64,000 bases of DNA from Bacteroidota bacterium (lineage in GTDB: Bacteria > Bacteroidota > Bacteroidia > Palsa-948): assembly GCA_016195025.1 (NCBI GenBank), contig JACQAL010000018.1, positions 62,001 to 126,000 on the forward strand, in the 5' to 3' direction. The position numbers were made by a program, and so were the translations under genes. Positions 50,430-61,204 of this stretch are shown here, in pieces. Below the pieces are notes generated by a model. That model was given only the letters and a program-made list of their open reading frames with translations, made no database searches and was not told the origin of the DNA. Each line of letters begins with the position of its first letter. Position 1 is the stretch's first letter.

Positions 50430-50533
50430 TAAAGCTCCAAGTTTCAAATTTCAAATCCCAAGTCCCAATAAAAAGATATGTGTATTTGTGGTTTTCTTGA
50501 AACCTGGAATTTGGGACTTGATACTTGGGACTT
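50430..50533. repeat. Repeat family A inverted pair at the comB-hydrolase junction
   Basis: CCAAGTTTCAAATTTCAAAT and CCCAAGTCCC (left) face GGAATTTGGGACTTG and ATACTTGGGACTTT (right), forming an imperfect hairpin between two converging genes. It may act as a two-way terminator. Confidence 0.65.
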
Positions 50534-52098
50534 TATTCTTTGACGAATTCATACTCCATCATATCCACAAAATCATTCACACGGATAATCACGCTTTTCA
50601 CTTTTCCGTTCACCACATTGAAATGAATTTTTTTAATTCCGTAAGTCGCCAAGCTGTAGGTGCAGAGAAAATCATTATCGCCCAGCGGCAGAAGATTTCC
50701 TTTCAGAAAAGGATGATGTGTAAATAATATTGTCAGCGAATGCTCCTGCGGCTTGGGTGCCGGTTTCCCAAACGAAATGGGAGGCAAAGGACCGATGATT
50801 GCAATTTTTCCATACACTTCGTTTGTGTAAGAGCCGGCATACTCTTCCATTTTCATAGAGGGAATTGGTTTTTTCGAAGCGGCTTCCCGCAGTTTGTTTA
50901 TTTCGGCATTTTCCATTTTAGTGTTCGCAGAAAAATTCCTGTAAAACTTTTCGCTCATGTTTTGATAGGGAAGATTCATGTAAGCGTCAATAATCTGAGA
51001 GCGAAGCGCGGCATAAAAAGAATTTGCATCGGTGTTTGTCAGCACAACAATTCCAAGATTCAGCGAGGGAATAAAACAAGTGGTGGTTACAAATCCATCT
51101 GCGCCTCCGTCATGCCGAATCATTTTTTTTCCATTGTAGTCAAGAAGAAACCAACCGAGCCCGTAGTTCTGAAAGTTTGCGCCCGAACTTGCAGGCATAT
51201 CGCGCACAATCATGTTTGAAGTTTGAGTGGTTTGCAAAACTTCATAGGGGAAAATCCGTTTACCTTCAAACTTTCCGCTGTCCAATTGCATCAGCAGCCA
51301 GTTTGCCAAATCTTTCACGCAGGAATTGATTGAAGCAGCAGGACCGAGATTATCCACGTTCGCATAGGGGAGAAGAACAAGTTTATCGTCAACCAATGTA
51401 TAGGGCTTGCAGGCATTGTTGTCAGCCGTAATTGTTTTGTACGTGGTGGAAGTTCGGTTCATTTTCAGCGGAAGAAAAAAATGAAACCTGAGAAAATCAT
51501 CCCACGAAGTATCTGTTGCTGCAGGAATGATTTCTCCTGCGGTGAGAAATGCCGCGTTGCAATAACCATAGTGCGAACGAAAACTAAAAACCGGTTTTAC
51601 ATTGCGCATGTTGTGAATTAATTCTTTCCGTGAAAGATTGCAATTCCAGTTCAGCAAATCGCTCTGGAAAGTTTGAAAGCCGATGCGGTGGCAGAGCAAA
51701 TCGCGCACAGTTACTTCGCGTGTAGCGAGTTCATCGTGCAACTTGAAATCCGGAATCCACTTCGTTACTTTATCATCGAGCGAAATTCTTTTTTGCTCAT
51801 CTAAAAGTGCGAGAGAGGTTGCGGTAAATGCTTTTGTATTGGAAGCAATCTGGAACAACGTGTTCTCATCCACTTTATTTGTCGCGCTGAGCGGAGCCGA
51901 AGCATCTTTTATTCCATAACCCTTTGCAACAACCACGTTTCCATCCTTCACAACAGCCACGGCCATGCCAGGAACATTCCAGCGTTTCATTTCGCGCTCC
52001 GCATATTTGTCAAGGGAATCTTTGATGAATGTGGGCTGGGAGAAAGACCCTTCGACTACGCTCAGGGTGACAAGAAAAAAAAGAAAAAGTTTTTTCAT
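50533..52098 (-). CDS. Serine hydrolase of the beta-lactamase class C family with DUF3471
   Basis: 521 residues. Catalytic SNTK (Ser86, Lys89), the second-motif Tyr in HYGYCNAAF, and RHDGGADGF in place of KTG. A C-terminal barrel of the DUF3471 type (EYAGSYTNEVYGKIAI) follows. Such enzymes act as periplasmic esterases or peptidases more often than as lactamases. The leader MKKLFLFFLVTLSVVEGSFSQ includes LSVVEGS, the translation of a short repeat (52046-52071; CCCTTCGACTACGCTCAGGG) that sits in the signal peptide in frame. No obvious operon partner. Confidence 0.9.
   Translation of the reverse strand: MKKLFLFFLVTLSVVEGSFSQPTFIKDSLDKYAEREMKRWNVPGMAVAVVKDGNVVVAKGYGIKDASAPLSATNKVDENTLFQIASNTKAFTATSLALLDEQKRISLDDKVTKWIPDFKLHDELATREVTVRDLLCHRIGFQTFQSDLLNWNCNLSRKELIHNMRNVKPVFSFRSHYGYCNAAFLTAGEIIPAATDTSWDDFLRFHFFLPLKMNRTSTTYKTITADNNACKPYTLVDDKLVLLPYANVDNLGPAASINSCVKDLANWLLMQLDSGKFEGKRIFPYEVLQTTQTSNMIVRDMPASSGANFQNYGLGWFLLDYNGKKMIRHDGGADGFVTTTCFIPSLNLGIVVLTNTDANSFYAALRSQIIDAYMNLPYQNMSEKFYRNFSANTKMENAEINKLREAASKKPIPSMKMEEYAGSYTNEVYGKIAIIGPLPPISFGKPAPKPQEHSLTILFTHHPFLKGNLLPLGDNDFLCTYSLATYGIKKIHFNVVNGKVKSVIIRVNDFVDMMEYEFVKE
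52046..52071. repeat. Repeat family G inside a signal peptide
   Basis: CCCTTCGACTACGCTCAGGG, a partly palindromic sequence, is translated as LSVVEGS between the hydrophobic core and the cleavage site of the hydrolase leader. Confidence 0.75.
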
Positions 52099-52157
52099 AA
52101 TAAATTAATTTGGGTAAAAGTAATAATTCTCTTTGCAGAGATATTTGTGTAAAAAAT

Positions 52158-52175
52158 CCTACATCTTTATGTAGG
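52158..52175. promoter_or_regulatory. Probable operator of the LuxR-type regulator, site 1
   Basis: The perfect palindrome CCTACATCTTTATGTAGG is centred 31.5 bases before the first base of the -7 box at 52198. The same relation holds at 58446. It could also act as a plus-strand hairpin terminator because Ts follow, but no plus-strand gene lies upstream. Confidence 0.6.
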
Positions 52176-52197
52176 TTTTTTTCATTTCATGATTAGA

Positions 52198-52205
52198 TAG
52201 TTTTG
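52198..52205 (+). promoter_or_regulatory. -7 box (TAGTTTTG) for the T9SS cargo gene
   Basis: TAGTTTTG matches TAnnTTTG, 26 bases before the ATG at 52232. No TTG is well placed at -33; the palindrome occupies that region, as expected for an activator-dependent promoter. Confidence 0.6.
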
Positions 52206-52231
52206 TTTTCACAAACCAAAAACTTTTTATC

Positions 52232-53395
52232 ATGAAAAAAATCTTACTCCTATCTTTTTTGATTTTGCAAATAGCAATTTCAAATGCGCAGCCGAACATT
52301 GTAATAAATGCTAATCCGGCTTCATCGTCTCCGTGCGACACTTGTTTTATTTTTTCTGCAAACCTGAATGGCTGGGGAACTGCTCCTTTCGCGTATGAAT
52401 GGAACATTAACAATCCGCCCGTGGCAACCGGCACCAGTGCAACCATCAGTCATTGCTTTAATCATATTCCCAATGCTGGCGATACAATTTATTTAAAAGT
52501 TACGGATGCTTTCGGGCAGATTGGCTACGGTTTTATGATAATGAATTCCATTTATCCGATTTTAAATGCAGTGCATTCTATTTGCATCGTTACTGTGGAC
52601 AGCGCATCGGGAAAAAATATAGTCGTATGGGAACAATCAACCGATACAACGGTGGCTTCCTATAATCTTTTCAAAGAAACCACTATGTCAGGTGTGTATG
52701 CGCTCGTTGGAAATATTCTTAGAAATAGTTTCAGCATTTTTCTCGATACATCCTCTCATCCCGAACAGGTTGCAGCGCGATATAAAATTTCCATGCTTGA
52801 TCATTGCGGTTTTGAATCACAGGAAAGCAGTGCAGTAAAAACAATTCATCTTACTGTGAGCGCGGGCTTGCCCGGCACATGGAATTTAAATTGGGATAAT
52901 GCGGAAGGATTTCCCGTGGTGAAATTCAGAATCTGGAGAAAGCATGCTTCGCAAAACCCAATGCTGATTGACAGCGTTCAAAGTTCTCTCAATTCTTATT
53001 CGGATGTGAATGCTCCTGCCGGTTTGATTCATTATTTTCTCGAAGCAATTTCCACGAACGTTTGCTATCCTTCCATGAAAGGATTTTTTTCTTCGTTTTC
53101 AAATTTTGTAGATAATTCCGCTTTTCTCGGAGTGAATGAAGAAGATATTTCAAAAAATATTTCTGTTAACCCGAACCCGTTTTCAACTTCTGCCATATTT
53201 ACGATAGATTCTGGAGTGAGAGTTCAGAATTCAAGATTTGAACTATTTGATGTATTCGGAAAGCAAGTTAAAAGTTTTCAAGTTACAAGCCAAAGGTTTG
53301 AAATTGTAAGAGGAAACTTTCCGAGCGGAATTTATTTTTATAAGCTTTGTGATGAAAATAAAATAATCAGCTCAGGAAAAATCATTATTCAATAA
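52232..53395 (+). CDS. T9SS cargo protein with fibronectin-like repeats
   Basis: 387 residues. Signal peptide (ILLLSFLILQIAISNAQ), a PKD-like module (CDTCFIFSANLNGWGTAPFAYEWNI), two fibronectin III-like domains (VVWEQSTDTTVASYNLFKETTMSGVYALVG; NLNWDNAEGFPVVKFRIWRK), and a type A T9SS sorting tail (SVNPNPFSTSAIFTI ... FELFDVFGKQVKSF ... SGIYFYKLCDENKIISSGKIIIQ). Probably secreted or surface-bound; ligand unknown. Promoter and operator suggest control by the regulator encoded at 57701. The next gene begins seven bases after the stop. Confidence 0.85.
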   Translation: MKKILLLSFLILQIAISNAQPNIVINANPASSSPCDTCFIFSANLNGWGTAPFAYEWNINNPPVATGTSATISHCFNHIPNAGDTIYLKVTDAFGQIGYGFMIMNSIYPILNAVHSICIVTVDSASGKNIVVWEQSTDTTVASYNLFKETTMSGVYALVGNILRNSFSIFLDTSSHPEQVAARYKISMLDHCGFESQESSAVKTIHLTVSAGLPGTWNLNWDNAEGFPVVKFRIWRKHASQNPMLIDSVQSSLNSYSDVNAPAGLIHYFLEAISTNVCYPSMKGFFSSFSNFVDNSAFLGVNEEDISKNISVNPNPFSTSAIFTIDSGVRVQNSRFELFDVFGKQVKSFQVTSQRFEIVRGNFPSGIYFYKLCDENKIISSGKIIIQ

Positions 53396-53402
53396 ATTGC
53401 CC

Positions 53403-54527
53403 GTGAAAAAAATTTACTTATTCATTCTGCCCACTCTGATTTGTTTTAAAATGCAGGCGCAATTGCCTGTAACGCTTCTTACAAATCTTGAATATCCTAA
53501 AGCTCTGTGGATTCAAGGGGGCAATGTTTATCTGACAGAAACGGCAGGACGGAATACAATTTACGGAGGAAAAATTTCTCTTGACAGGTATCGTATTTCC
53601 AACGGGCAGAAAACCGTTATGGTTAACAATCCTGAGAATTCAGATGCCTTAGTTTCGGCAAGTGACGGCAAAGTTTATTTATCATCTTACCAAAATTCTA
53701 TTCCCGGACAGTACGGAAAATTCAGCGTTGTTGATACGGGAACTTTTGTTGAAACACATCTGATGGACATTGCCATTGCATCAGATGATATGTTCATAGA
53801 AGCGAATGACAATATCAGCATTGCCGGCATGAGTGATCTTTCTTCAGCGAACAGTATTTATTATCTCACAGCAGGAAATTATACTTCTGCTGCCATTTTG
53901 CAGAACGGACTCGGAAGAGTATGGTGTATTTCAAAAAAAGGAAGCGATACGTATTTTTCCGATTTACATACGACATACTATTTTGGCCCGAACGGAATCA
54001 TACATACGTTCATGAATAAAAGTGTTATCTCAATCACGTTCAGTTCCAATTATCTGTTTTACGCAGATTATTTTTCGGGAACAGTGGGAAGAGTAAATCT
54101 TCAAACGATGGCTGACCAAATCCTTTTGTCGGGCTTGAATGCACCCATCAATGTCAGGTACGATGCGGGAACGAATAGTTTGTTTTTTTTAGAATCAGGA
54201 ACTGACGGTGCTCAGTACAAAGACGGAACGCTGAAAGTTCTGCGGAATGTGGACAGTTCGATAGCAGGTGTAGCATCTGAGGAAAATAATAATGCTGTGA
54301 AAATATTTCCCAACCCGTTTACTTCTTCAGCATCAGTTGAATTAAATTTTCCTGTTCAGGAAATGATTTTCGAACTATATGATGAATTTGGAAACATAGT
54401 AAAAAGCATTCGAGCCGCAAAAGAAAAGTTTGAAATTGAAAGACAATATCTTGCCGCAGGAATTTATTTCTACAAAATTTCTGACGTAGAAAAAATTATC
54501 GCAACTGGAAAATTAATTATTCAATAA
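53403..54527 (+). CDS. T9SS cargo protein, propeller-like
   Basis: 374 residues from GTG 53403 (a TTG two codons earlier is also possible), with signal peptide (KKIYLFILPTLICFKMQAQ). The body has repeated short strands with Trp/Tyr (YPKALWIQGGNVYLTE, DALVSASDGKVYLSSY, NSIYYLTAG, VISITFSSNYLFYADY), a beta-propeller pattern that I cannot assign to a named family. A type A T9SS tail ends the protein (IFPNPFTSSASVELNF ... FELYDEFGNIVKSI ... AGIYFYKISDVEKIIATGKLIIQ). The gene probably belongs to the transcript starting at 52232. Confidence 0.82.
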   Translation: MKKIYLFILPTLICFKMQAQLPVTLLTNLEYPKALWIQGGNVYLTETAGRNTIYGGKISLDRYRISNGQKTVMVNNPENSDALVSASDGKVYLSSYQNSIPGQYGKFSVVDTGTFVETHLMDIAIASDDMFIEANDNISIAGMSDLSSANSIYYLTAGNYTSAAILQNGLGRVWCISKKGSDTYFSDLHTTYYFGPNGIIHTFMNKSVISITFSSNYLFYADYFSGTVGRVNLQTMADQILLSGLNAPINVRYDAGTNSLFFLESGTDGAQYKDGTLKVLRNVDSSIAGVASEENNNAVKIFPNPFTSSASVELNFPVQEMIFELYDEFGNIVKSIRAAKEKFEIERQYLAAGIYFYKISDVEKIIATGKLIIQ

Positions 54528-54566
54528 ATCACGATGCAAAACATTAACTACATTCGTCACACTATC

Positions 54567-57500
54567 ATGCGGGCAAAAATTTTCTTAGCAATTATTTTTC
54601 TTTTCACAGGAAAATTATTTTCTCAGAACGATACACTTTTCTTCCGTCACTACAATCTGGAGCACGGGCTTTCCAACCGAAATGTTACTTCGGTGATTCA
54701 GGATAGTTTGGGTTTTATGTGGTATGGCACGCACGAAGGCATCAACAAATTTGACGGTTATAAATTTATTCCTTTCAAGCACGACCCGAAAAATCCAAAC
54801 TCGCTGGTGAGCGATGATGTGACTTGTCTTGCCGTGGAAAAAAACGGAATGATTTGGATTGGAACGAAAATGAAAGGCGTGAATCTTTTCAGTCCTTACT
54901 CGCACGAGTTTAAAATTTTTCATCACGATGAAAAAAATCCTTCTTCGCTGAGCGATGACCGAATTTCTTCTCTCTATGTGGACAGCATTCATCAGGTCAT
55001 CTGGATTGGAACTATGAACGGTTTAAATGCGCTTGATATAAAAACAAAAAAGATTTCTGTTTACAAGCACGATGAAAAAAATAATTTCAGCCAACGGACT
55101 GATTCCGACAATGTCGGGACATTGAGCAATGATAAAGTTACAGCAGTGAAAGTGGATAAAAAAGGAATTGTTTGGATTGGAACGGATGGGGGAGGGCTGA
55201 ACGTTTTTGATTATGACGCGAAAAAAATCTCATCTTATCAGCACGATGAAAAGAAAAATTCCGTCAGCACAAATATCATCAGAGATGTTTTTGTGGACAA
55301 GCAGCACACCGTTTGGATTGCAACTCCTAATTCTTTGAACTCACTGAATCCTGAAACAGGCGAATTCAAAATTTACAGGCACGATGAAAAAGATGAACAC
55401 TCGATTTGCAGCGATGACATCACGAGTGTTTACCAGGATAAATTTGGAAAAATATGGGCGGGAACCGCGCGCGAAGGATTATGCGTGTATTATCCGAACT
55501 CGGGAAAATTTTTTCTTTACTCGCACGAAAAAGAAGTACCGAATTCTTTAAGCAGTAATAAAATCAATACCCTTTCGCAGGGAAGGAGCGGAATGTTCTG
55601 GGCGGCAACGAGCGATGGAGGTCTCAATGCTTTCAGTCCGAAGACACTCAAGTTTAATTTATTTTCTCCCATTCCGAAAGGAGAAGATGAAAGTGTGTAT
55701 GAAAAAATTTCCTGCATGCTGACGGATAAAAATAAAAATCTTTTCATCGGTACAAAAGAAAACGGGATTTATGTCATAGGAGAAAATCACAAAGTGAAAA
55801 ATTTCAGGAAAGAAAAATCAAATGCTAATTCCATTTCCGATAATAATGTGAATTGCATTTTTCAGGATAAGGATGGAAAAATATTTACAGGAACAGATGC
55901 CGGTCTGAATGAATTTAATTCTTCTTCAGAAAAGTTCAGAAAAATTATTTTCGATAAAAATTATTCTGATGGCGAAATTTCCGCAGTGTATGAAGACCGC
56001 GACAATATGCTTTGGATTGGAACGAAGGACGGAAGTTTATTTTCCTTCGATGAAGCAAGCAATGTTTCTTCGGCTTACTCGAATAATAATAATTCTGGCG
56101 GGCAGTTGAGCGAAAATAATATTACGTGCATCACGCAATCGCAAAATGGAATCATCTGGATTGGAACGTACGGAAGCGGCTTGAAAAAATTTGACCGCAA
56201 GACAGGAAAATTTTTTATGTACCGCAGCGATGATAAAGTTGCTCATCCCATCGGTGGAAATTTCATTAACAAAATTTACGAGGGAAAAGACGGAGTTCTT
56301 TGGATTAGTACGCAAGGCGGAGGATTGAACGTGCTTCACCCGAACACAAATGATTTTACGGTTTACACAATGCTCGATGGCTTGCCGAATAATTCTCTCG
56401 GTTCAATTTTTCAAGATGATAGTTTGAAACTTTGGATTGGAACAGACAATGGAATTTGCAGATTAAGTTTTGACGGAGAAAAAATTCAGCAGTGCAGAAT
56501 GTTTGATATGATTGACGGTTTGCCCACAACAGAATTTTATGACGGAGCAATTTGCAGGAATCAGAATGGAAGAGTTCTTCTCTCCTGCAAAAAAGGTTTA
56601 ATCACTTTTCATCCCGACAGTTTGAAAAATAATCCGTACAAGCCGCCCGTCATCATTACAGATTTCATGCTCTTCAATAAAATCATTCAGCCGAATGATT
56701 CATCGGGCATTCTGAAAAATTCTATTTCAATTACGAAAGAATTATTTCTGAATCATAATCAAAATTCTTTTTCGTTTGAGTTCACCGCTATCAGTTTCAT
56801 CAACCCGATGAAAAATAAATACGCGTTTATGCTCGAAGGTTTTGACAAGGACTGGATTTTTCACAACGCGCAAAACCGCACGGCAACTTATACAAACCTT
56901 GACCCCGGAGAATATATTTTCAAAGTGAAGGCAAGCAACAACGATGGAATCTGGAATGAAGAAGGAACTTCTGTGAAAATTTTTATCGCGAGCCCGTATT
57001 ATAAAAAATGGTGGTTTGTTTTGCTTTGCGTTTTTTTCACTGCCTCAATCTGCTATACGATTTACTGGATTCGCCTGCAAAGAATTCTTGAGATGGAAAA
57101 AGTCCGCACGAACATTGCCCGCGATTTGCACGATGATATGGGTTCTGCGCTCAGCAGTATTTCCATTTACAACGAAGTGGCGAAAAAAATGACGGAAGAA
57201 AAAGTTCCTGAAGTTGCTTCTGTGCTTTCGAATATGGGCGATACTGCGCGCGAATCCATGGACAACATGAGCGACATCGTGTGGGCTATCAATCCGAAGA
57301 ATGATAAGTTCTCTGCGATTATGGAACGCCTGAGAATTTTTGCGAATCCAATTCTCGAAGCAAAAGAAATTCAACTTCATTTACAATTTTCAGAATCTCT
57401 CGGAGATTTGCAATTGCTGATGCAACACAGAAAAAATATTTATCTCATCCTGAAAGAAAGCATCAACAACATTGCAAAATATTCCGAAGCGAAAAATTGT

Positions 57501-57701
57501 TTTATCATAGTGGAAAAAAAGGAAAAGCGAATGAACATTCAAATCAAAGATGACGGAAAAGGTTTTGAAAAAACAGAACTCACGCTCGGAGGAAACGGAT
57601 TAATCAATATGAAAAATCGCGCGGAAGAATTAAATGGCTCGCTGAATATTTCTTCTGAAATTGTAAAAGGAACGATTGTGAATTTTCAATTTGAAATCTG
57701 A
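54567..57701 (+). CDS. Propeller-type sensor histidine kinase (Reg_prop, Y_Y_Y, HisKA_3)
   Basis: 1,044 residues from ATG 54567, which starts a good signal peptide (AKIFLAIIFLFTGKLFSQ); ATG 54534 is possible. A periplasmic sensor of two seven-bladed propellers made of Reg_prop repeats (VWIGTDGGGLNVFD pattern, about 12), then a Y_Y_Y domain (YAFMLEGFDKDWIFHNAQNRTATYTNLDPGEY), one transmembrane helix (WWFVLLCVFFTASICYTIYWI), and a cytoplasmic HisKA_3 kinase with phosphoacceptor His855 (ARDLHDDMGSALSSI) and ATPase motifs NNIAKYSEAKN, DDGKGF, GLINMKNRAEEL. No receiver or DNA-binding domain is fused, unlike typical hybrid systems. Its stop overlaps the regulator ATG by one base (TGATG). Confidence 0.92.
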   Translation: MRAKIFLAIIFLFTGKLFSQNDTLFFRHYNLEHGLSNRNVTSVIQDSLGFMWYGTHEGINKFDGYKFIPFKHDPKNPNSLVSDDVTCLAVEKNGMIWIGTKMKGVNLFSPYSHEFKIFHHDEKNPSSLSDDRISSLYVDSIHQVIWIGTMNGLNALDIKTKKISVYKHDEKNNFSQRTDSDNVGTLSNDKVTAVKVDKKGIVWIGTDGGGLNVFDYDAKKISSYQHDEKKNSVSTNIIRDVFVDKQHTVWIATPNSLNSLNPETGEFKIYRHDEKDEHSICSDDITSVYQDKFGKIWAGTAREGLCVYYPNSGKFFLYSHEKEVPNSLSSNKINTLSQGRSGMFWAATSDGGLNAFSPKTLKFNLFSPIPKGEDESVYEKISCMLTDKNKNLFIGTKENGIYVIGENHKVKNFRKEKSNANSISDNNVNCIFQDKDGKIFTGTDAGLNEFNSSSEKFRKIIFDKNYSDGEISAVYEDRDNMLWIGTKDGSLFSFDEASNVSSAYSNNNNSGGQLSENNITCITQSQNGIIWIGTYGSGLKKFDRKTGKFFMYRSDDKVAHPIGGNFINKIYEGKDGVLWISTQGGGLNVLHPNTNDFTVYTMLDGLPNNSLGSIFQDDSLKLWIGTDNGICRLSFDGEKIQQCRMFDMIDGLPTTEFYDGAICRNQNGRVLLSCKKGLITFHPDSLKNNPYKPPVIITDFMLFNKIIQPNDSSGILKNSISITKELFLNHNQNSFSFEFTAISFINPMKNKYAFMLEGFDKDWIFHNAQNRTATYTNLDPGEYIFKVKASNNDGIWNEEGTSVKIFIASPYYKKWWFVLLCVFFTASICYTIYWIRLQRILEMEKVRTNIARDLHDDMGSALSSISIYNEVAKKMTEEKVPEVASVLSNMGDTARESMDNMSDIVWAINPKNDKFSAIMERLRIFANPILEAKEIQLHLQFSESLGDLQLLMQHRKNIYLILKESINNIAKYSEAKNCFIIVEKKEKRMNIQIKDDGKGFEKTELTLGGNGLINMKNRAEELNGSLNISSEIVKGTIVNFQFEI

Positions 57702-58348
57702 TGGCAAAAAAAATAAAAGTTACACTGTATGACGATAACAACTCGCTGCGGAAAAGTTTGGAGCAATTGATTCAAACCTATCCCGATTTTGAATTGGCGG
57801 GAAGTTTTCCGAATCCGCTGCACATTCTTGACAACACAAAAGAAAAAACTCCCGATGTAATCCTGATGGATATTGATATGCCGGGAATGACGGGTATTGA
57901 AGCAGTGGAACTCGTTCATAAAAATTTTCCCGAAGTAAAAGTAGTGATGCAAACAGTTTTCGATGAAGACGAAAAAATTTTTCAATCCATCTGCAATGGA
58001 GCGGTAGGATATATTCTGAAAAAAACTCCGCCATTGCAAATTCTTGATTCAATCAAGCAGGCAAAAGATGGCGGTGCGCCAATGACTCCTTCCATTGCAA
58101 TAAAAATTCTGAAAATGTTCCGGCAGCAACCACCGCCACCCGAAGAAAAAGATAAAGTGGATTTAAGTTCGCGCGAGCAGGAAATTCTTTCAGCGCTCAC
58201 AAAAGGCATGAGCTATAAAATGATTGCCGAAGAAATTAAAATCGGAATTGATACCGTTCGCTTCCACATAAAAAATATTTATGAGAAACTACACGTTCAT
58301 TCAAATACCGAAGCGGTTTCGCGCGCGTTGAAAGAAGGACTAATCTAA
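57701..58348 (+). CDS. NarL/LuxR-family response regulator
   Basis: 215 residues. Receiver domain with Asp57 (VILMDIDMPGMTG), the conserved acidic pair DD11-12 and Lys in YILKKTP, then a LuxR-type helix-turn-helix (LSSREQEILSALTKGMSYKMIAEEIKIGIDTVRFHIKNIYEKL). It is the cognate regulator of the sensor kinase just upstream. The same palindrome is found before the genes at 52232 and 58532, and the regulator probably binds there. A hairpin of family A repeats follows and may end the transcript. Confidence 0.93.
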   Translation: MAKKIKVTLYDDNNSLRKSLEQLIQTYPDFELAGSFPNPLHILDNTKEKTPDVILMDIDMPGMTGIEAVELVHKNFPEVKVVMQTVFDEDEKIFQSICNGAVGYILKKTPPLQILDSIKQAKDGGAPMTPSIAIKILKMFRQQPPPPEEKDKVDLSSREQEILSALTKGMSYKMIAEEIKIGIDTVRFHIKNIYEKLHVHSNTEAVSRALKEGLI

Positions 58349-58432
58349 AATTCCAAAATACAAATCCCAAATAACAAACATTTTTTCATTCTTGGAATTT
58401 GTTTTTTGGGATTTGTTGGTTGAATTTCTTTG
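58349..58432. repeat. Repeat family A hairpin after the regulator gene
   Basis: CAAATCCCAAATAACAAA and TTTGTTTTTTGGGATTTG are inverted copies with one mismatch, preceded by AATTCCAAAATA and its counterpart TTGGAATT. It can work as a terminator of the sensor-regulator transcript. Confidence 0.65.
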
Positions 58433-58445
58433 AAATTTCGCCTAC

Positions 58446-58461
58446 CTACATTAAGATGTAG
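58446..58461. promoter_or_regulatory. Probable operator of the LuxR-type regulator, site 2
   Basis: CTACATTAAGATGTAG is a near-copy of the palindrome at 52158-52175 (CTACAT-N4-ATGTAG). Its centre is 31.5 bases before the first base of the -7 box at 58485, exactly as at the first site. Confidence 0.6.
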
Positions 58462-58484
58462 TTGATGACGCCTCGCGGTTGATA

Positions 58485-58492
58485 TACATTTG
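58485..58492 (+). promoter_or_regulatory. -7 box (TACATTTG) for the small propeller gene
   Basis: TACATTTG fits TAnnTTTG, 39 bases before the ATG at 58532, with the palindrome centred at about -42 of the expected start of transcription. Confidence 0.6.
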
Positions 58493-58531: not shown

Positions 58532-59284
58532 ATGAAAACTATCATCTACGCTCCGCTCGCTGTAAACAGCAATTCAAATTCAATGGCGCTCAACTTAACC
58601 AAAGTTCCGTTCGCCATCGAAAACAAAATTGAGTTCAACATGGTTTCCATAAATATGTGGAACCGCATTTACAGAAAACAGGAAACTGCTGCTTATAATA
58701 AGGAAGCAAGCATCTGGTCACTGAACTTTATCAGCGCTGCACTTTTCAAAAAACTCAGCATGACAGTTGTGTTAGTGCTGCTCTCAATTTTTTCTTTCGG
58801 AAAAATTACTATCAATGATGCAGAAAAATTTGTTAACGCGAATTCAAAAATCACTGCCGTTGCTGAAACAGAAAAATTTCTCTGGATTGGAACGAATAAC
58901 GGAGTGGTTCGTGTGAACAAGAAAAATGAAAAAGCAGTTTATCTCACTGTTTCAAATTCAAAACTGCCTTCCAATAATGTTACTTCCATCTGTGTTCGTA
59001 AAGACGGCAATGTTTGGATAGGAACTGCAAATGGAATTTTGCGCTATGATAAATTTGCATACATCGTTGTAAATTCTGATAATTCACCTCTTGCAGAAAA
59101 CAAAATCACTTCAATAGTGGAAGACAAGAAGAATGATTTGTGGATTGGAACTTCGCATAGCGGATTAATGAAAGTTCATAATCTTTCTTACCAAATTTAC
59201 AACCCAAAAAAATCTCCGTTGAAAAGCGATAACATTGCTTCACTTACTACCGATGAACAAGGAAATGTATTTGTGAATAGGTAG
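58532..59284 (+). CDS. Small Reg_prop-repeat protein with internal signal anchor
   Basis: 250 residues. About 72 polar residues come first (NSNSMALNLTKVPFAIENK), then one hydrophobic segment (MTVVLVLLSIFSF), then four Reg_prop units (KFLWIGTNNGVVRVNKK, NVWIGTANGILRYDK, DLWIGTSHSGLMKVHN, and a final partial one), fewer than a full propeller. The repeats are those of the sensor kinase upstream, so it may be a decoy or accessory sensor, or it may pair with another half propeller. An internal ATG before the hydrophobic segment (58760) would give a normal signal peptide, and the start choice is therefore uncertain. Confidence 0.65.
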   Translation: MKTIIYAPLAVNSNSNSMALNLTKVPFAIENKIEFNMVSINMWNRIYRKQETAAYNKEASIWSLNFISAALFKKLSMTVVLVLLSIFSFGKITINDAEKFVNANSKITAVAETEKFLWIGTNNGVVRVNKKNEKAVYLTVSNSKLPSNNVTSICVRKDGNVWIGTANGILRYDKFAYIVVNSDNSPLAENKITSIVEDKKNDLWIGTSHSGLMKVHNLSYQIYNPKKSPLKSDNIASLTTDEQGNVFVNR

Positions 59285-59777: not shown

Positions 59778-59873
59778 TGAAACAAAAATAATAATTTCGA
59801 TGCTTGAACTTTATTCGGCAAAGTAATGATATTCGTCATGCTGTTAATAACTCTTTAACAAAAGAAAAAATTC

Positions 59874-59905
59874 TTGTTCAGGATATAAGAAAACTTTTAC
59901 TTTTG
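59874..59905 (+). promoter_or_regulatory. actA promoter (TTG-N21-TACTTTTG)
   Basis: TTG at 59874-59876 and TACTTTTG at 59898-59905, 21 bases apart. Transcription would begin near 59911, before the ATG at 59957 and after the more distant in-frame ATG at 59804, which decides the start. Confidence 0.7.
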
Positions 59906-59956
59906 TCACGCAATTGTCATAGAAATTTGCTCTTTTACAATGACCAAACTTATTTT

Positions 59957-61204
59957 ATGATTTGTTTCTACTCCCGCTTCTCTGAATTTCTTTTAAAATC
60001 TTTTTTTCTCTTCGTTTTTATCTGCCCGTCAGTAAGCATTAGCTTGTCTGCCGAAGACGGAGGAAAACTTTTTAAGCAAAACTGTTCGCGCTGCCATACG
60101 ATTGGCAAAGGCAAACTCACCGGACCGGATTTGCAAGGCGTTTTAACACGTGTTCCTTCTGAAACGTGGATGCATGCATGGATTAAAAATAACAAAGCTG
60201 TTTTGAAATCGGGCGATGCGTACGCGAATAAAATTTTCAATGAGAACGGAAAACAAAACATGGATGTGTTTGACGGAGTTCTCAGCGATGAACAGATTGA
60301 TGCGGTGATTGCCTACGTGAAAAATCCTCCGGCTGAGAAAAAAGAAAATGCTCCCACTGCTGCCGGTGAAAATGCAGCGCAGCCGCAGGAAAAAGGACTT
60401 CCCGCATTTACCATTCTTCTCATTGCCGCAATTGCTCTTCTGATTCTCGTAAGCGTTCTCGGAAGTGTAAAAAAACATCTTCAGGATAGCGTGAACGCTA
60501 AAAAAGGTTTGCCTCCTTCCGAACCGCAAAGCGCCTATCAGTGGGTGAGACATCATAAACGCATTACTGCGCTTATCGTAATTATTCTCGGAGGATTTTG
60601 TGTGCGATGGATTTATATTGGCGTGATGAACATCGGAGTTTACGATACGTACAAACCAACTCAGCCAATAAAATTTTCTCACCAGGTTCATGCAGGAAAA
60701 CTTTCTATCAATTGTGTTTACTGTCATAGCGGTGCAGAGAAAGGAAAAACTGCCGGAGTTCCTTCCGCGAATGTTTGTATGAATTGCCACAAAGCAATTT
60801 CTGAAGGGCCGCTTACAGGAAAAGTTGAGATCGCAAAAATTTATGACGCTGTCGGATGGGATCCTGCGAAAGGCGCTTACACAAAACCGCAGCACCCTTT
60901 GAAATGGAACCGCGTTCATGCGCTTCCTGATTTCGCTTACTTCAATCACTCACAGCACGTGGTGGTTGGAAAACAGGATTGTAAAAACTGTCACGGAGAT
61001 ATTGCTTCAATGGATGTAGCGCAGCAAATTTCTCCGCTCACAATGGGTTGGTGCATTGACTGCCATCGTAAAACAGAAGTTCCGGGAATGGCATCCAATC
61101 CTTACTATGCTGATTTGCATGCTAAACTGAAAGAAAAATATAAAGGTGAACCCATCACAGTAGAAAAAATGGGCGGACTGGATTGTATCAAGTGTCATTA
61201 TTAA
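59957..61204 (+). CDS. actA: Alternative complex III subunit A, six-heme c-type cytochrome
   Basis: 415 residues from ATG 59957. A signal peptide (FLLKSFFLFVFICPSVSISLSAE), a monoheme cytochrome c domain (CSRCH at 43-47, GPDLQGVLTRVPSETW), an Ala/Glu linker, a transmembrane helix (FTILLIAAIALLILVSVLG), a second one (ITALIVIILGGFCVRWIYIG), and a pentaheme module with CVYCH, CMNCH, CKNCH, CIDCH and CIKCH. Total six CxxCH motifs. In ACIII, ActA receives electrons from the quinol-oxidising core for delivery to the oxidase. The extra N-terminal heme domain looks like a fused ActE-type cytochrome. actB follows by 21 bases. Confidence 0.93.
   Translation: MICFYSRFSEFLLKSFFLFVFICPSVSISLSAEDGGKLFKQNCSRCHTIGKGKLTGPDLQGVLTRVPSETWMHAWIKNNKAVLKSGDAYANKIFNENGKQNMDVFDGVLSDEQIDAVIAYVKNPPAEKKENAPTAAGENAAQPQEKGLPAFTILLIAAIALLILVSVLGSVKKHLQDSVNAKKGLPPSEPQSAYQWVRHHKRITALIVIILGGFCVRWIYIGVMNIGVYDTYKPTQPIKFSHQVHAGKLSINCVYCHSGAEKGKTAGVPSANVCMNCHKAISEGPLTGKVEIAKIYDAVGWDPAKGAYTKPQHPLKWNRVHALPDFAYFNHSQHVVVGKQDCKNCHGDIASMDVAQQISPLTMGWCIDCHRKTEVPGMASNPYYADLHAKLKEKYKGEPITVEKMGGLDCIKCHY

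Follow-up and report, generated by a model that had tools for sequence, protein, structure and literature searches.

A recurring palindrome at a fixed distance from the Bacteroidota -7 box as the probable operator of a LuxR-type regulator encoded beside a propeller sensor kinase

We analysed a 64,000-nucleotide stretch of a Bacteroidota genome (hereafter the window; contig JACQAL010000018.1), in which two copies of the palindrome CTACAT-N4-ATGTAG flank the genes of a sensor-regulator pair and very probably serve as its binding sites on the DNA. In the reading that we favor, to which we assign a probability of roughly 85%, the regulator at 57701-58348 would bind CTACAT-N4-ATGTAG and activate, in a class II manner, the promoters of its own operon and of a small propeller gene, using a layout that would extend across its family. 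The identification of the palindromes as operators is strongly supported by phyletic co-occurrence, conserved spacing, association with relatives of the regulator, and covariation with the recognition helix. Mechanistically, a phosphorylated regulator dimer would bind the dyad, whose center lies at about -43.5 and whose downstream edge borders the -33 element, and would activate two sigma-ABfr promoters, the first driving both cargo genes, the kinase, and the regulator, which would amount to positive autoregulation, and the second driving a small propeller protein built of the sensor's repeats. For LuxR-type regulators of this group, the corresponding Bacteroidota-wide layout would be a 6-4-6 inverted repeat centered 30.5-31.5 bp before TAnnTTTG, with a half-site that the recognition helix would set: residue 188 its two outermost bases, residues 183 and 187 those further in, and residue 191 base 4.

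Results

Two palindromes at the same distance from two -7 boxes

The sequence-only reading of this DNA had reported CTACAT-N4-ATGTAG before the genes starting at 52232 and 58532, with the dyad center 31.5 bases before a TAnnTTTG box in both cases, and both observations were reproduced (Table 1), as was the claim that the sites flank the genes for a sensor kinase and a LuxR-type regulator. The palindrome has two copies in the 3.5-Mb genome, both in the window, while its reversed control has none, and 100 shuffles of the window yielded no match. The genome scan that had been proposed, run on the compound site (palindrome, 23 bp, TAnnTTTG) with up to three mismatches, found sites 1 and 2 and no further site, versus 4 matches for the control. 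Since the genome holds no further site, the predicted regulon is two promoters, that of the operon and that of the small propeller gene. A candidate third target, a one-mismatch palindrome at C17:34541, was rejected, as neither direction offers a -7 box at the required distance.

Table 1 Features of the regulator locus and its sister-genome operators (positions in the window unless a locus is given)
Feature	Position	Strand	Remarks
Operator 1 (predicted), CTACAT-CTTT-ATGTAG (CTACATctttATGTAG)	52159-52174	.	Center 52166.5
-7 box TAGTTTTG, operon promoter	52198-52205	+	TAnnTTTG consensus per PMC6847099
First operon gene, secreted protein with Por_Secre_tail (T9SS cargo)	52232-53395	+	Pfam 1e-8; ortholog in L018
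Second T9SS cargo gene, Por_Secre_tail	53397-54527	+	Pfam 1.3e-7
Sensor kinase: Reg_prop propeller, Y_Y_Y, membrane span, HisKA_3, HATPase_c	54534-57701	+	Pfam
LuxR/NarL-type response regulator, receiver and GerE	57701-58348	+	Overlaps kinase stop codon
Recognition helix GIDTVRFHIKNIYEKL, residues 182-197 of the regulator	58244-58291	+	
Strong hairpin, probable operon terminator	58353-58419	+	-25.6 kcal/mol for 58349-58440, z -4.3
Operator 2 (predicted), CTACAT-TAAG-ATGTAG (CTACATtaagATGTAG)	58446-58461	.	Center 58453.5
TTG (-33 element) abutting operator 2	58462-58464	+	20 nt before TA
-7 box TACATTTG, small propeller gene promoter	58485-58492	+	TAnnTTTG
Small propeller protein (Reg_prop repeats)	58532-59284	+	Pfam 3.8e-20
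Sister-genome operator 1	L018:4975-4990		Spacing conserved
Sister-genome operator 2	L018:10090-10105		Spacing conserved

Because the T of TAnnTTTG is at -12, with the -7 element spanning -12 to -5 (PMC6847099), the dyad center falls at -43.5 and not near -42 as first proposed; the class II geometry itself stands, the center lying close to -41.5 and the dyad abutting the -33 (elsewhere -35) element, and this geometry is enriched across the family. The earlier statement that no good -33 TTG is present holds for site 1, whose promoter lacks TTG at -33 and carries an unfavorable G at -10 relative to the published consensus (PMC6847099), but fails for site 2, where a TTG follows the dyad; both sister-genome sites have a TTG at the site-2-like position. 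Around site 1 (52150-52185), A6...T7 runs lengthen the dyad and are missing in the sister genome. Site 1 lies between divergent genes, and the beta-lactamase-like gene at 50533-52098 might be a further target of it.

The operon and its regulator

Successive gaps between the first cargo, second cargo, kinase, and regulator genes are 1, 6, and -1 bases, and the four genes therefore form one operon, with site 1 in its promoter. The targets named in the sequence-only reading thus stand as the operon led by the 52232 cargo gene and as the propeller gene, whereas the 52232 gene is not a separate target, since it belongs to the regulator's own operon. As this gene heads an operon that contains the kinase and the regulator, site 1 would mainly serve autoregulation. 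The second cargo gene is absent from the sister genome's operon. Directly 3' of the regulator gene, the hairpin in Table 1 probably separates the operon from site 2.

The regulator carries a receiver domain (PF00072, 1.1e-20) followed by a GerE domain (PF00196, 9.1e-17), the NarL/FixJ arrangement, and the cognate kinase of this family is found in the adjacent overlapping gene, with HisKA_3 (2.9e-10) and HATPase_c. Its best solved relatives are VraR and NarL, and its residues R187, F188, and K191 align with NarL TV-K-V-HV-K, in which the counterparts K188, V189, and K192 contact bases. A multihaem cytochrome c gene (59804-61204), whose product may be akin to the leading subunit encoded in alternative complex III operons, adjoins the regulon and is adjacent in the sister genome too.

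Conservation in the genus and class

An ortholog of the regulator occurs in one of six congeners (G005, the sister genome, 95% identical), the next-best match in the genus being 43%, and the motif follows the same distribution: it is found in G005 only, the other five congeners being without both regulator ortholog and motif. In G005, two motif copies lie 5.1 kb apart in orthologous places, both with 31.5-bp spacing; the gene upstream of site 1 differs there, yet the site and its spacing are kept. The 43% regulator, from G001, was rejected as a counterpart of the system, for its partner is a TPR kinase and no such site accompanies it. Of 395 genomes examined in the class, this one and G005 are the only two with the exact compound site, and one-mismatch compound matches are near control level, with those in G040 (C2) and G368 (C3) placed 9 and 114 bp downstream of relatives of the regulator. 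The regulator of G145 (65% identical, L169) lacks a site of this kind in the surrounding 250 bp; directly after it comes a secreted T9SS-like gene, apparently in the same operon.

The small propeller gene as a probable target

The product of 58532-59284 has repeats related to the sensor's propeller, lacks a T9SS sorting domain, and is predicted to be an exported or membrane propeller. A small propeller gene with the palindrome lies near the regulator in this genome, G005, L057, and L058. In the genome of L056, a 199-aa propeller gene that starts 25 bp after its TTTG box sits on another contig from the regulator and has an exact site (L142), and because this site is kept when unlinked, the propeller is tied to the regulator independently of linkage. 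Speculatively, the propeller protein could be a modifier of the sensor or bind the same ligand. Its N-terminal extension of ~70 residues (58532-58760), which precedes a hydrophobic segment (FNMVS.NMWNRIY), is conserved in the sister genome and absent from L057 and L058.

The same geometry beside related regulators

A GTDB genome scan provided 79 loci with related regulators (44-95% identical). At these loci, CTACAT-N4-ATGTAG with at most one mismatch has 15 intergenic matches, versus an average of 0.97 across 89 permuted half-sites, a figure that is inflated by the 27 matches of TCACAT, the next-highest count being 4. When the spacer was varied, spacer 4 alone yielded more than one intergenic match, and an unbiased census of inverted repeats ranked TCACAT-N4-ATGTGA first (13 loci), with CTACAT among the next. 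Relative to the dyad, TTTG peaks at offset 23 (22 sites versus ~1 elsewhere), and YYACAT-N4-ATGTRR-N27-TTTG has 45 matches versus 2 for the reversed pattern in 51 whole genomes (50 relatives plus this one), with the cultivable Hymenobacter guriensis contributing 7 strand-matches, of which two overlap. A sequence-agnostic test took the 250-bp surroundings of 202 regulators and counted perfect dyads of two 6-bp arms four bases apart: 40 had a -7 box 22-24 bp downstream, versus ~3 per three-position bin elsewhere. Beside ~200 relatives, perfect dyads thus cluster with their centers 30-32 bp upstream of the -7 box; only ~1/5 of the ~200 regulators examined have one in the predicted spot, and the remainder may have imperfect sites, different sites, or sites elsewhere. 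Genes downstream of the relatives' sites encode the regulator itself, T9SS cargo, lipoproteins, and small propeller proteins.

The family sites also bear on the sign of regulation. An unlikely alternative, if the best placed of those weighed here, keeps the same operator and regulator but makes the dimer an obstacle to RNA polymerase at -33, and hence a repressor, or a regulator whose sign changes with phosphorylation. The dyad does abut the -33 element, and TTG directly abuts the dyad in 13/26 family sites with TTTG, so that some of these promoters could work without an activator. However, the dyad stops just before the TTG without covering it, its helical phase to the -7 box is tightly kept, and many family -7 boxes are weak (T at -12 in 9/26, G at -10 in 10/26), as expected of activated promoters. 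From this geometry we infer activation rather than repression.

Recognition helix and half-site

Residue 188 is F, Y, or H in 12/12 regulators with CTACAT and S, T, or A in 27/27 with TCACAT. Operator type hence tracks residue 188 in 39/39 regulators (Fisher p 2.6e-10), a count that includes a second, independently drawn regulator set in which all called sites agreed, and that overstates independence because the regulators are related. On a receiver-domain tree both traits need five changes, and shuffle p values overstate the evidence because one contrast alone lies on strongly supported branches. The residue-base pairs with the highest mutual information are 183 with N6, 188 with N1N2, and 187 with N6; the signal for 191 with N4 is weaker.

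Other helices pair with other half-sites at the same geometry: Y-DTVRAH with TTACCA (L110, L123, and L199, and L069 with one mismatch), SYNTVNSH with TCACTA (L187, L193, L201), VN[ST]H[IV][ST] with TCATTG (L173, L238, L269, L200), VNNH with TAGCAA (L083, L093, L112), VKFH or IKFH with CTACCC (L076, L092), and YETVRSHM with a TCCCC-type operator. The alternative palindromes TAGCAA, TTACCA, TCATTG, and TCACTA keep the same distance to the -7 box and adjoin the regulator gene. The CTACCC site was also looked for at L075 and L086, which have VKFH/IKFH helices, and was not found at either.

A blind search for CTACCC-N4-GGGTAG plus box gave 6 matches in 395 genomes versus 1 for the control. One of these, at L301, lies 28 bp after a TPR-membrane-LuxR gene (helix NTVKFHLKN) and before a T9SS cargo gene, and it counts for the code because a VKFH helix predicts CTACCC. 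The prediction was only a partial success, since the other 5/6 matches have no LuxR gene within 1.5 kb. The gene at L301:1531-2941 fuses a LuxR-type domain to TPR repeats and a membrane segment, has no receiver, and looks like a one-protein version of the same logic. We consider it somewhat probable that Bacteroidota LuxR-type regulators follow such a code, in which residues 183, 187, 188, and 191 would set the half-site, as laid out above, at a fixed promoter position. Operators and regulons would then be predictable from the protein, and this might extend to LuxR proteins that are not part of two-component systems.

This covariation weighs as well against reading the palindromes as RNA hairpins (terminator or attenuator) with a coincidental shared spacing, which we regard as very improbable. 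The site 1 dyad does lie within the arms of a longer, terminator-like inverted repeat on both strands, a 7-bp stem with A and T runs at -10 kcal/mol on either strand, but at site 2 and at the two sister-genome sites there is no T run and folding is weak (~-4.4 kcal/mol). The terminator/attenuator reading was rejected because the T run, present only at site 1 of this genome, is not conserved; a GC-rich stem plus T run of the kind that marks an intrinsic terminator is not found across the orthologous sites. Moreover, the sites are not transcribed by these promoters, as they are upstream of the -7 boxes; constant arms with variable spacers are the reverse of a conserved hairpin; and the arm sequence tracks a protein's recognition helix. 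Scarcely credible, too, is a chance role of another transcription factor (e.g., a CRP-like one) at these operons, for the TCACA/TGTGA words resemble CRP half-sites but in the opposite orientation (TCACA-N6-TGTGA), the sites within the genus are confined to members having this regulator, and half-site changes follow the regulator's own recognition residues.

Discussion

Inverted-repeat operators and recognition-helix base contacts are known for the NarL/FixJ (LuxR-type) family, and LuxR-type regulators that combine such operators with class II activation are of an established kind. Our regulator shares the receiver and GerE domains with NarL, VraR, DesR, and DevR; it differs from NarL/FixJ systems in the 6-4-6 dyad at a fixed place before the Bacteroidota -7 box. 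In NarL's 7-2-7 site, TAC and GTA lie ten bases apart, whereas the distance here is eight bases. For DegU of Listeria, recognition-helix contacts have been described in a model (PMC9263151). The dyad near -43.5, its abutting of the -33 element, and its strict phase to the -7 box liken the arrangement to class II activation, which here would act on the sigma-ABfr promoter (TTG / TAnnTTTG); literature searches found no class II example of this regulator family on such a promoter.

Bacteroides hybrid two-component systems combine Reg_prop, Y_Y_Y, kinase, and AraC-type regulator in one protein. The propeller plus Y_Y_Y sensor architecture is shared with our system, which in contrast has a HisKA_3 kinase and a separate LuxR-type regulator. 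In P. gingivalis, PorXY-SigP controls secretion machinery genes and is not known to involve a LuxR-type regulator. Here, by contrast, cargo genes share the regulator's operon. PorXY-SigP is an example of two-component control linked to the T9SS (PMC4800418, PMC5005315). The sequence-only reading had concluded that the regulator activates secretion of propeller or cargo proteins; what survives is a probable operator of the neighboring LuxR-type regulator in activator position, which co-occurrence, spacing, and covariation support, and not control of secretion as such. In the literature searched, which was thin on subscription papers, we found neither a published operator for this Bacteroidota group nor a published residue-to-base code tied to TAnnTTTG promoters.

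Conclusions

LuxR-type regulators that partner with propeller or TPR sensors are numerous in Bacteroidota genomes. The layout described here would show how an activator is positioned at the atypical promoter of Bacteroidota, and the code would give cleanly testable specificity swaps. The recurrence of the regulator itself, propeller proteins, T9SS cargo, and lipoproteins as targets suggests that these systems control surface proteins, and a fixed operator position together with a residue-to-base code would make their regulons readable from sequence in environmental genomes.
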